Below are positions 1,732 to 58,402 of a stretch of 64,000 nt of DNA, piece after piece (position 1 is the stretch's first letter; each line of letters begins with the position of its first letter). Position numbers and translations under genes: made by a program. The stretch is from Segatella buccae ATCC 33574 (GTDB lineage: Bacteria > Bacteroidota > Bacteroidia > Bacteroidales > Bacteroidaceae), in contig NZ_GL586311.1 of NCBI RefSeq assembly GCF_000184945.1, positions 802,731 through 866,730 on the forward strand. The letters are read 5' to 3'. Below the pieces are notes generated by a model. That model worked only from the letters and a program-made list of their open reading frames with translations. It did not search any database and was not told the origin of the DNA.

Positions 1732-1967
1732 AATCGTAAGGTTTTAGGTGTTAAACATTGTCCGTTGCATAAACTCTCTATGGTCAAGCAAGTTCTTGAC
1801 TCTGCCGCAAAGTTAGACCAAAGGGGCTGACAAAGAAAGATGTTTCGCCTAAAAAGGCATAGGGAAATGCCTTTCGTTGTGGGGGAAATCCCCCTCCGGG
1901 CACTTCTCTTTAGCAACACAGACAATGCTCGTGGAATGCTCTTGATGTCAGAAGTTTTCGCAACGCA

Positions 1968-2322
1968 TTTGCATTCGGGCAAATCATGTAGTATCTTTGC
2001 ATTAGCAAGGGAAGCACGCAAGTGTTTCCCTTTTTTAAGTTCTAAACTCCCTAAAAGCCCCCCACCCCCCTGAAAGGGGCTTTCCATCCCTGCGATGGGG
2101 GTGTCGTTCGGCCCAAATGGCTTTGTAAAAGGGCCTCTTTGAGGTTGTCATCCGGGCCAAACGAGACTCCAAGTGTGGCCCTTTTGGATGGTCGCTTGGG
2201 CCGACTGAGAAAATTGGTGGGGCGGATCTGGGCGATGAGATGAATATTTTTAGAAAGCCAAAAGATAGGAGTGCTTTTGGCTGTAAGGCTTTTTCGAAAG
2301 ATTTAATAGTTCGTGCTATATA
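1968..2322 (+). repeat. Promoter-hairpin element, copy A (about 355 bp)
   Basis: First of four copies of one element. In order: TTTG (1968-1971), 20-bp spacer, TATCTTTG (1992-1999); a hairpin GGGAAGCAC / GTGTTTCCC with loop GCAA (2009-2030) followed by T6 (2031-2036); a C-rich stretch; a large imperfect stem-loop with arms starting TCGGCCCAA at 2108 and ending TTGGGCCGA at 2204; then a tail ending in TTTAATAGTTCGTG. The predicted transcript start is only about 5 nt before the hairpin, so the product would be about 30 nt. The copy lies in the 807-bp gene-free stretch 1732-2538, antisense to both neighbouring genes. The rest of that stretch holds only the GC-rich repeat at 2383. Confidence 0.85.
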
Positions 2323-19672: not shown

Positions 19673-20533
19673 TCATCTCGACACAAAGGAATGATGGGAC
19701 AGCGTGGCGGCAATACGCTTGTTACCATCGCTGAAGCTATGGTTTTTGGTGACGAGATAGAGTAGCATGGCGGCCTTTTCTTCCACGCTCGGATATAGAT
19801 CTGCACCGCCAAATGTCTGATAGATCTGTCCGATGGAGCTTTTGAACGAATCGTCTTTTTCGTTGCCAAAAAGCACGGAACCGCCAAACTTCTCACGCAG
19901 CATGTCTATCTCGTGCATCGCATTCTCGTAGGTGGCATGGAAAGTCTCTTCCGTGGTGGTCTTGGCTATGCCCAACCGCTGATAGTCGTAATCGTCAAGC
20001 ACATCGAGGGCATAGGTATAGTCCACCACCACATCAAAGAGTGCACTGCCCTCATCCGTAGGCGGAACAGCCTGCTGCCGGATGGTTCTGCCCACCACTT
20101 GCACCAACTGGCGAAGCTCCGCAATCTGCTGTTTACGAATTCGCTCATTCACCGCATATCCCTTGACGAGATATTGCTTGAGAATGGTATTCGCCCATTG
20201 GCGGAAACGCACACCCCTCACAGAATTGACACGATAACCAACAGAGATAATCATATCAAGATTATAATAAGGAATCGTTCGTATTACCTTTCTATTGCCT
20301 TCCGAACGAACCTGTGCATTTTTTGCACAAGTTGCCTTTTCCTCCAATTCTCCTATCTTGTAAATGTTCCGAATATGGCGCACAATTACAGTTCTGTCCG
20401 TTTGAAACAGTTCAGACATTTGCGCCTGCGTAAGCCACACGGTTTCCCCTTCCAACTTGACATCAAGCTGTGTCTTTCCATCTTCACTCTGATAAATAAT
20501 GATTTTGTCGTTTAGGTTTATCATCTCGTTCAT
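19673..20533 (-). pseudogene. RhuM-family protein with Fic/Doc-like domain, truncated at the 3' end
   Basis: 286 residues from the ATG at 20533 (MNEMINLNDKI). Longer open sequence upstream is part of a repeat element, not the gene. The N-terminal part (about 15-110) contains WLTQAQMSELFQTDRTVIVRHI, the DNA-binding-like start of RhuM virulence-associated proteins. The C-terminal part reaches the Fic/Doc catalytic core NHSFSDGNKRIAA and then stops after about ten unrelated residues, where related proteins continue for roughly 60 residues. The other frames do not restore the missing part. Full-length relatives are linked to mobile islands and toxin-like AMP/phosphate transfer. Probably a decaying remnant. 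Confidence 0.75.
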
Positions 20534-20557
20534 ACACTCTAACATTGATTGAAAAAG

Positions 20558-20566
20558 GCAAAGATA
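20558..20566 (-). promoter_or_regulatory. -7 box upstream of the RhuM gene
   Basis: On the minus strand TATCTTTGC lies 24 bp before the ATG at 20533. No good -33 box is seen. It supports the chosen start, because longer forms of the reading frame would begin upstream of transcription. Confidence 0.5.
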
Positions 20567-20614
20567 CAAAAAATAACTGAAACCGGTAATAATCCTATCT
20601 TTAAAACTGAAATG

Positions 20615-20972
20615 GGAGCATATATCACGAACTATTAAACTTTTAGAAAAAGGCTGACATGCAAATTTCTCTCGCCCATTTCCCAATCCGATTCCATCCG
20701 CTTTATTCGACCCGGCCGACCCATCAATTTTCCCACTAAGCCCAAACGACATTGCAAAACGGCCACACCCAGAAGCTCACTCGGGCCGAACGAGAATGCA
20801 AAAGAGGCCGTTTCACAATGCTGTTTGGGCTGAATTGCAACCCAAAGCAGGGTTGAAAAGCCCCCTTTAGGGAGTTGGGGGTCTGTAGGTTGAATGGAAA
20901 CTAAAAAAAGGGAAACGCCAACGCGCTTCCCTTGCCAATGCAAAGATAATGAAAAACAAGCCCGAATGCAAA
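20615..20972 (-). repeat. Promoter-hairpin element, copy C (about 358 bp)
   Basis: Same plan as copies A, B and D, read on the minus strand. TTTG (20972-20969), 20-bp spacer, TATCTTTG (20948-20941); hairpin GGGAAGCGC / GCGTTTCCC with loop GTTG (20931-20910), then seven T (20909-20903); a C-rich motif CCCCCAACTCCC; the large stem-loop between 20830 and 20740 with outer arms GCCCAAAC / GTTTGGGC; and the tail ending TTTAATAGTTCGTG near 20628. It occupies most of the gap 20534-21111 between the RhuM gene and the second pectate lyase gene and is the only copy that points into a gene on the same strand. Confidence 0.85.
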
Positions 20973-21111
20973 TCGGCGAAGAAAAAACCGGACAGAACTA
21001 CGAGTGTCAAGAAAATGGCAGAGACGGCAGACAAGACACGCCATGCAGACTCCGGAGGAGAGTTCCAAACGCGCTATCCCGTCGGTTTTCTATCCATGCC
21101 TATCCCGAAGG

Positions 21112-33229: not shown

Positions 33230-33401
33230 TAATTTGCCACTTATCATTTCTGAAAAAAATAATCTTAGAACAATGAATAAGCGATCATAACATGGGAAAC
33301 ATCTGGAAAAAACATCGTCGGAAGGCAGCTGTAAAGCACTTATACATCAATTATAGCAGGAAAAATAAAGTATTAAATCTGTCAACAACTTTCACTACCA
33401 A

Positions 33402-33713
33402 TTTGCATTCGGACAAATAATGTAGTATCTTTGCAATAGCAAGGGAAGCACGTGCGTGCTTCCCTTTTTTAGTTTCCTAAATCAACAACACCCCCCCAGC
33501 CCACTTAAAGGGAAATTTTCGGCCCAAATGGCTTTGCAAAAGGGCCCGAATGGGCTTTCAAGTGTGGCTCTTTTGAAATGTCGGTTGGGCCGAGTGAGAT
33601 TTTTGATGGAGCAGATGGAGATAATAAGTTGGAAAGAATTGAGAAGAGAAATAGGCATGGAAAAATTCCGTGTAAGGCTTTTTCGAAATATTTAATAGTT
33701 AAGACTATAGGAT
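33402..33713 (+). repeat. Promoter-hairpin element, copy B (about 312 bp)
   Basis: TTTG (33402-33405), 20-bp spacer, TATCTTTG (33426-33433); hairpin GGGAAGCAC / GTGCTTCCC with loop GTGC (33443-33464), all Watson-Crick pairs; T6 (33465-33470). The large stem-loop runs from 33519 (TCGGCCCAA) to 33593 (TTGGGCCGA). The tail GTAAGGCTTTTTCGAAA then TTTAATAGTT ends near 33713. It lies in the 570-bp gap 33230-33799 between the convergent acyltransferase and GT2 genes. The gap outside the element is AT-rich and shows no supportable gene. Confidence 0.85.
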
Positions 33714-44276: not shown

Positions 44277-44461
44277 TGTCGTTTCTATTGATTTACGGCG
44301 AATCGTATGGGTCAAACGGCGAAAATACATTCTCTTCATTCGACCCATTGGCCAAAACTTTTTCTTTGCCGACGAATGAAGCTGGTGAAGCGAATGTAGG
44401 TTGCGGGAATAGATTCGCATAATCCGCACTATTCGCCGACAGAAAGCATATAGCACAAAAC

Positions 44462-44800
44462 TTACTCAGATTGAAAAAAAGCCTTACACGCCTTTTTGTT
44501 GTATTCCCTCGTTTGTCTATTTCCATCCGCCTTATCAGCCCGATTATCCCCATTAGTTTTCTCACTAAGCCCAAACGACATTGCAAAACGGCCACAGTCG
44601 GAAGCTCGTTCGGCCCATCTGAGAATGCAAAAGAGGCCGTTTCACAATGCTGTTTGGGCTACAATTCCGCCCAAACAGCATTGAAAAGCCCCCTTTAGGG
44701 GGTTGGGGGTCTGTAGGTTGAATGGAAACTAAAAAAAGGGGAACGCCATTGCGCTCCCCTTGCTTATGCAAAGATAGTCATATTTTCGCCCAAATGCAAA
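44462..44800 (-). repeat. Promoter-hairpin element, copy D (about 339 bp)
   Basis: Read on the minus strand: TTTG (44800-44797), 20-bp spacer, TATCTTTG (44776-44769); hairpin GGGGAGCGC / GCGTTCCCC with loop AATG (44759-44738), then seven T (44737-44731); CCCCCAACCCCC motif; large stem-loop between 44659 and 44579 with outer arms GCCCAAAC / GTTTGGGC; tail with GTAAGGCTTTTTTT near 44480. It is closest to copy C. It lies in the 840-bp gap 44186-45025 between fabI and the GH3-family gene, antisense to both. Confidence 0.85.
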
Positions 44801-44992
44801 TGTGATGCGAAATATATTGACATTGAATGGAATTGTTTTTAAAGTTGTTATTGCCGCCTATACCATTTCGGGGATAAAATATTCAAATGATTTCATTCTT
44901 ATACCCGGACAGTGGTTATTTCCCGATCTACTCCTCTTCCCGCCACGATTATTAAATTTTGAAAATTGTGCCATTATCTCAAAAGATTAGAT

Positions 44993-58224: not shown

Positions 58225-58395
58225 AGGAGTTAAGGGAGATAGGGAGAGGAGTTAAGGGAGTTAAGGAGTGAAAGGGAGTTAAGACAACGGCTTTACATCT
58301 TGATATTGTCGATGGATCAAGCAACAAAGCTATTGTCTTAACTCCCTTTCACTCCTTAACTCCCTTAACTCCTCTCCCTATCTCCCTTAACTCCT
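58225..58395. repeat. Giant inverted repeat, two perfect 63-bp arms built from AGTTAAGGG words
   Basis: Left arm 58225-58287 starts AGGAGTTAAGGGAGATAGGG; the right arm 58333-58395 is its exact complement; the loop is 45 nt. Words such as GGAGTTAAGG and GGGAGTTAAG recur within each arm. It lies exactly between the convergent mutS (ends 58213) and GH51 (ends 58403) genes. A related but decayed copy lies at 61982-62126, with a similar loop start (AAGACAAC then GCTTTAC). Confidence 0.95.
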
Positions 58396-58402
58396 TAAAA
58401 AA

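Follow-up and report, generated by a model that had tools for sequence, protein, structure and literature searches.

A hairpin selected as RNA and predicted to terminate a promoter-terminator minigene at the head of a species-restricted intergenic repeat

The hairpin described here is probably the intrinsic terminator, as predicted from sequence, of a promoter-terminator minigene that heads a high-copy intergenic repeat, apparently restricted to a single species. The repeat family comprises approximately 97-101 copies in a 3.28-Mb genome (Prevotella sensu lato), and four of them lie in the window, a 64-kb stretch of this DNA (C1:802731-866730). Its proteins place the genome close to Segatella, Hallella and Prevotella, with NadA up to 86% identical to named records. 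Selection acts on the fold of the hairpin, not on its sequence, and the functional form is RNA, for which a built-in stop signal is the most likely role.

The size of the family depends on how copies are collected. A whole-genome search with a pattern set by the promoter and the 5' arm, which favours copies with a canonical 5' arm, yields 89 copies (reversed control, 0). A covariance model gives 113 matches (97 at E<=0.003), and a list merged by hand, degenerate copies included, holds 101 loci. The elements are intergenic and approximately 330-375 bp long. In the 89-copy profile the order of the parts is TGTMA-N3-TTTTC, ATTTGCATT, TATCTTTGCA, N2, A/G, GCAA, a 9-bp stem with a variable tetraloop, and T6, and the left box is repeated in the tail with equal internal spacing (Table 1). 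Past the hairpin and T6 the element continues for another 250-290 bp or so to the tail, TGTAAGGCTTTTTC...CTATA, where conservation drops to background.

Table 1. Parts of the first element copy, the other copies in the window, and one variant copy elsewhere in the genome (window positions unless a contig is given).
Feature	Position	Strand	Basis or remarks
Whole element copy 1, 375 bp, intergenic	1946..2320	+	Sharp left edge TGTC, right edge CTATA; background conservation outside
Left box TGTMA-N3-TTTTC	1946..1959	+	89-copy profile: G 99%, T 97%
Sigma-ABfr-type promoter, ATTTGCATT (-33) and TATCTTTGCA (-7)	1967..2001	+	Profile, promoter search, published consensus
Predicted transcription start	2004..2004	+	A/G only in 89/89 copies; distance to -7 box
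Hairpin GGGAAGCAC-GCAA-GTGTTTCCC, 9 bp	2009..2030	+	
T6 tract; with the hairpin, a predicted intrinsic terminator	2031..2036	+	
Interior: C-rich stretch, then array with GGCC every 22 bp	2037..2281	+	Autocorrelation, frame consensus
Tail: second box TGTAAGGCTTTTTC, CTATA end	2282..2320	+	
Whole element copy 2, 374 bp	20621..20994	-	Hairpin 20910-20931, loop GTTG
Whole element copy 3, 330 bp	33380..33709	+	Hairpin 33443-33464, loop GTGC
Whole element copy 4, 374 bp	44449..44822	-	Hairpin 44738-44759, loop AATG
Variant copy L146, entirely different 13-bp stem	G000:C1:1001429-1001484	-	

Several other features occur in the window, some of them in or beside elements. A RhuM-like protein with a Fic domain (19673-20752, minus strand) adjoins copy 2. 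The C-rich repeat CCCCCAACCCCCTAAAGGGGGCTTT (28-60) is found within many elements and also alone in intergenic DNA, and a similar motif, CCTCCCCCGACCCCTCCGAAGGAGGGG, often follows directly after the CTATA end. A separate dispersed intergenic repeat, GGCGTGCGGGCAGGCATMAAGCGCYGCCYCTAC, is present at 1099-1150 and 2384-2435, and also at locus L096. Positions 58225-58396 form a nearly perfect inverted repeat of approximately 62 bp, made of GGGAGTTAAGGGAG-like units around a centre of approximately 45 nt (-136 kcal/mol as RNA), which gives rise to spurious plant and animal microRNA matches in Rfam. The hairpins of the element themselves match no Rfam 15 family, even at E<=1.

The preliminary description of this DNA listed four hairpins with defined arms and the loops GCAA, GTGC, GTTG and AATG, in which stem pairs 4 and 8 differ on both arms and pair 6 is either G-C or G-T; the four window copies agree with it in every one of these details. 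Across the 64-kb window a degenerate hairpin pattern has eight strand-matches (both strands counted) against 0.58 expected, with at least eight in 0 of 100 shuffles, and the four hairpins have predicted RNA folding energies of -17 to -20 kcal/mol (z -4.5 to -5.9). The same description held that the structure, as RNA or as DNA cruciform, is under selection. Four copies are insufficient for that conclusion, but the approximately 97 copies of the whole genome establish it, and in the larger alignment every one of the nine pairs covaries, at a level that far exceeds the shuffles and also exceeds the slid controls.

This result was obtained with 76 distinct hairpins collected on the 5' arm only, compared with shuffles and with slid registers; since the 3' arm played no part in the collection, it provides an independent test of pairing. 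Two-sided changes occur at 9/9 stem pairs and total 92 cells, compared with 33 in shuffles. The paired fraction is 98.1% of cells, compared with 89.6% when shuffled and at most 68% in the slid controls. The covariation is measured among paralogues of one genome, no relative carrying the element. The variable positions of the promoter-hairpin module have no phylogenetic structure (mean pairwise identity 0.336, expected 0.343), so that shuffling provides a nearly fair null. The tetraloops are also biased relative to column-shuffled loops, with 24 GNRA loops against 16.2 expected (p=0.001) and three UNCG loops against 0.18, the latter in copies that may share ancestry. Copy L146 keeps the layout and place but has a wholly unrelated stem, ACGGGGAACGCAG...CTGCGTTCCCCGT, with TTTTC after it. 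This copy lies near the best tyrosine-recombinase match of the genome (1000514-1000975), probably an Xer-type gene, which may be a coincidence.

The choice between RNA and cruciform falls on the RNA side, because the stem tolerates G.U but not A.C. Every G.T mismatch on one strand of a cruciform corresponds to an A.C mismatch on the other, and equal tolerance of both is expected. Among 88 copies the one-sided changes amount to 90 G.U against 12 A.C, or 78 against 3 without the loop-closing pair. In the 5'-arm columns that are free for G or A, 22 of 218 G are in G.U, compared with 0 of 134 A in A.C (Fisher p=2e-5). The selected form is therefore the RNA of the promoter-sense strand, and a DNA cruciform in that role was rejected on this asymmetry.

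The sequence in front of the hairpin is a promoter motif. The consensus of sigma-ABfr promoters consists of TTTG near -33 and TAnnTTTG near -7 (PMC7366714), and both boxes are present in the element at these positions. Promoter, purine and T6 tract are near-invariant in the 89-copy profile. A promoter search gives 90 matches (control, 0), all 90 of which fall by their coordinates at element copies, and this search found no promoter module without a hairpin. Downstream, a stable GC-rich stem-loop directly precedes the T tract, as in intrinsic terminators. Such a hairpin follows none of the 846 TAnnTTTG sites in 860 kb of DNA from relatives, compared with 84 of 339 sites in loci of the own genome, which were chosen for carrying the element.

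From this layout, RNA polymerase with sigma-ABfr would start at the conserved purine, make RGCAA and the hairpin, and release at U6 an RNA of approximately 33 nt, presumably with some benefit to the host or to the element. Selection would then act on the fold of this short RNA, not on its sequence, and the same hairpin-T6 signal may also stop read-through from upstream genes on the same strand. The remainder of the element would act as DNA: GGCC recurs in it at 22-bp intervals, and its two boxes share one orientation and stay on the same helical face, where a protein probably bridges or coats them.

The interior supplies a built-in negative control for the covariation of the hairpin. Its inverted repeat (GGCCCAAA...TTGCAAAAGGGCC / GGCCCTTTTGCAA...TTTGGGCC) was considered as an RNA or single-stranded DNA structure and rejected, as 80.4% of its cells are paired, the same as in shuffles. 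It is explained by the recurrence of GGCC every 22 bp, that is, by DNA-level sites. The units of this array are degenerate, with autocorrelation peaks at lags of 22, 44 and 66 and a consensus in a 22-bp frame. The length of the element is locked to the DNA helix. The distance from left box to tail box is 291-294, 302-304, 311-314, 323-325, 333-337 or 347 bp, with one copy at 281; its best period is 10.9 bp (R=0.90), and 69 of 70 distances deviate from an 11-bp grid by no more than 2 bp. The 33 copies with unrelated interiors alone give R=0.86 (p=3e-11). Most length steps equal the array period of 22, but 7-8 copies are offset by 11, a single turn of the helix. The 22-bp array alone could account for much of this quantisation, only those 7-8 copies standing at the 11-bp half phase. 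The length lock suggests bridging or coating of the element by a protein.

The two parts of the element may differ in their history. Three pairs of copies (L016/L043, L012/L041 and L025/L027) have interiors that are 92-95% identical; at the variable promoter positions they resemble each other no more than random pairs do (permutation p=0.84), and their loops differ. This lack of a shared descent signal in the head is consistent with a two-module arrangement, somewhat short of an even chance, in which interior and tail (from T6 to CTATA) are a mobile or homogenised unit downstream of an older promoter-hairpin module. Such a unit, which is compatible with the minigene reading, might have spread by insertion after the terminator, by gene conversion or by RNA-mediated copying. 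However, the promoter search found no module lacking the hairpin, and no empty site is readable in relatives, the nearest of which are approximately 82-83% identical in nqrF and have intergenic DNA that does not align. The unlinked head could reflect either the exchange of interiors between old loci, the later addition of interior and tail, or a head that evolves faster under constraint. An inherited unit that starts exactly at the transcription start was also considered and is weakened by the position-resolved analysis, in which stem positions track the subfamily consensus and the hairpin loop and other neutral positions are not inherited.

It is unlikely that the hairpin is kept only as the terminator of the upstream host gene, beside a promoter-like sequence that is incidental. 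In line with this explanation, 60 of 84 scored copies have an upstream neighbour on their own strand, and its stop codon often precedes the element by 1-60 bp. However, pairing is unchanged where the upstream gene faces the opposite way (98.7% vs 98.2%), and the promoter boxes, their spacing and the purine are conserved as strongly as the stem. The orientation bias is mostly an avoidance of divergent promoter regions, the neighbours being tandem for 27 copies on the same strand and 16 on the opposite one, convergent for 23 and divergent for 7. There is an outside chance, of a similar order, that the approximately 100 elements are not transposon relics but long-standing stations on the chromosome, each maintained individually. 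At each of them, a promoter firing and aborting at once would stand beside a helically phased protein array with bridged end boxes, and each copy would provide initiation, not an RNA, for example for local supercoiling or nucleoid anchoring.

A role of the hairpin as DNA, either as a cruciform or as a single-stranded transposition hairpin like those of REP and IS200-IS605 elements, is very improbable. The high copy number, the lack of target duplications and terminal inverted repeats, and the one Y1-transposase gene of the genome would fit such a role. The strand-asymmetric wobble described above is not expected of a cruciform, the stem lies 62 bp inside the left end, behind the promoter, and no copy of the element occurs in the 3.2 kb examined around the Y1 gene, where the palindromes are different. 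This sole Y1 match (L133, G000:C1:540771-540923) is located among short palindromes with 3-nt loops (GGCCAAAACGCTGTTTTGGCC, GCTGCAACGCCGTTGCAGC), and its surroundings are a RAYT/REP-like arrangement unrelated to the element. Trans-acting regulation by base pairing is just as improbable for these tiny RNAs, which have a predicted promoter and terminator of their own and a conserved 5' RGCAA, but whose stems are free to change and whose unpaired parts, five conserved bases and a highly variable tetraloop, leave little for a seed.

The probable minigene and its repeat appear to be species-restricted within the material searched. A match with the hairpin is found in 0 of 397 other genomes of the genus, which contain only scattered matches with 1-2 mismatches and no hairpin sequence; exact scans of GTDB and IMG/VR contigs have no match, nor does blastn against plasmids or phages. 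A horizontal origin was sought in phages, plasmids, viral contigs and other genomes, with no match in any. Within the genome, a stretch of 319 kb (2.52-2.84 Mb; G000:C1:2517000-2836000) is free of copies, a gap with a chance of 0.003. As 12 of the 22 tyrosine-recombinase matches in the genome also fall there, the stretch probably represents acquired DNA (islands) that the element has not entered.

These copies form an unusually clean natural experiment, in which approximately 100 paralogues with saturated neutral sites in one genome make RNA-level selection readable against an internal negative control. Because the lengths follow the DNA helical repeat, looping or filament formation can be tested directly as a mechanism. 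A promoter running into its own terminator some 100 times in one species, and not seen in any of the 397 congeners examined, raises the question of what use initiation without elongation may have.

Among known systems, the element is best read, judging from its sequence, as a self-terminating promoter heading a MITE/BOX-like intergenic repeat. It is short, non-coding, high-copy and dispersed with unique flanks, as MITEs are. It is not counted as a MITE in the strict sense, since tests for inverted repeats and target duplications found neither: the element begins with TGTC... and finishes with ...CTATA, its two boxes are repeated in direct orientation, and flank matches show no convincing excess at any offset. 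Y1 and tyrosine-recombinase gene matches are present in the genome, and no autonomous partner was recognised. REP/RAYT elements are also high-copy intergenic hairpin repeats. However, their hairpins lie near a RAYT gene and are used as DNA, whereas here the hairpin is selected as RNA and the Y1 gene of the genome is surrounded by other palindromes. In layout, the element resembles the BOX elements of Streptococcus pneumoniae, which are likewise modular and intergenic, number approximately 100, and have stem-loops and a middle module that varies; BOX is not known to have a built-in promoter-terminator pair. Intrinsic (Rho-independent) terminators share the GC-rich stem, the T6 tract and the stable tetraloops, but here the predicted terminator stands approximately 5 nt past the predicted start, some 97 times, and within a repeat.

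The closest published analogue in kind is BrickBuilt of Porphyromonas gingivalis, with 19 copies, IS5-like terminal inverted repeats, some target duplications and a clean tandem array of 1-23 units (PMC4596501). Both are species-restricted and always intergenic repeats of Bacteroidales, arranged as a leader, an array of short units (23 nt in BrickBuilt) and a tail, with promoter activity, which is predicted here. By contrast, the present element has phased, degenerate 22-bp units in place of tandem 23-nt bricks and is without IS5-like terminal inverted repeats, and its promoter-hairpin-T6 head with covariation and its helical length lock are not described for BrickBuilt (PMC4596501). The nearest precedent known for the length lock, by analogy, may be the size distribution of Paramecium IESs, whose lengths track the DNA helical repeat with a period of approximately 10.2 bp, read as looping between the ends (PMC3464196). 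Those sequences are eukaryotic, transposon-derived and TA-bounded (PMC3464196), whereas here the element is bacterial and the period, approximately 10.9 bp, is that of the distance between two like-oriented boxes.
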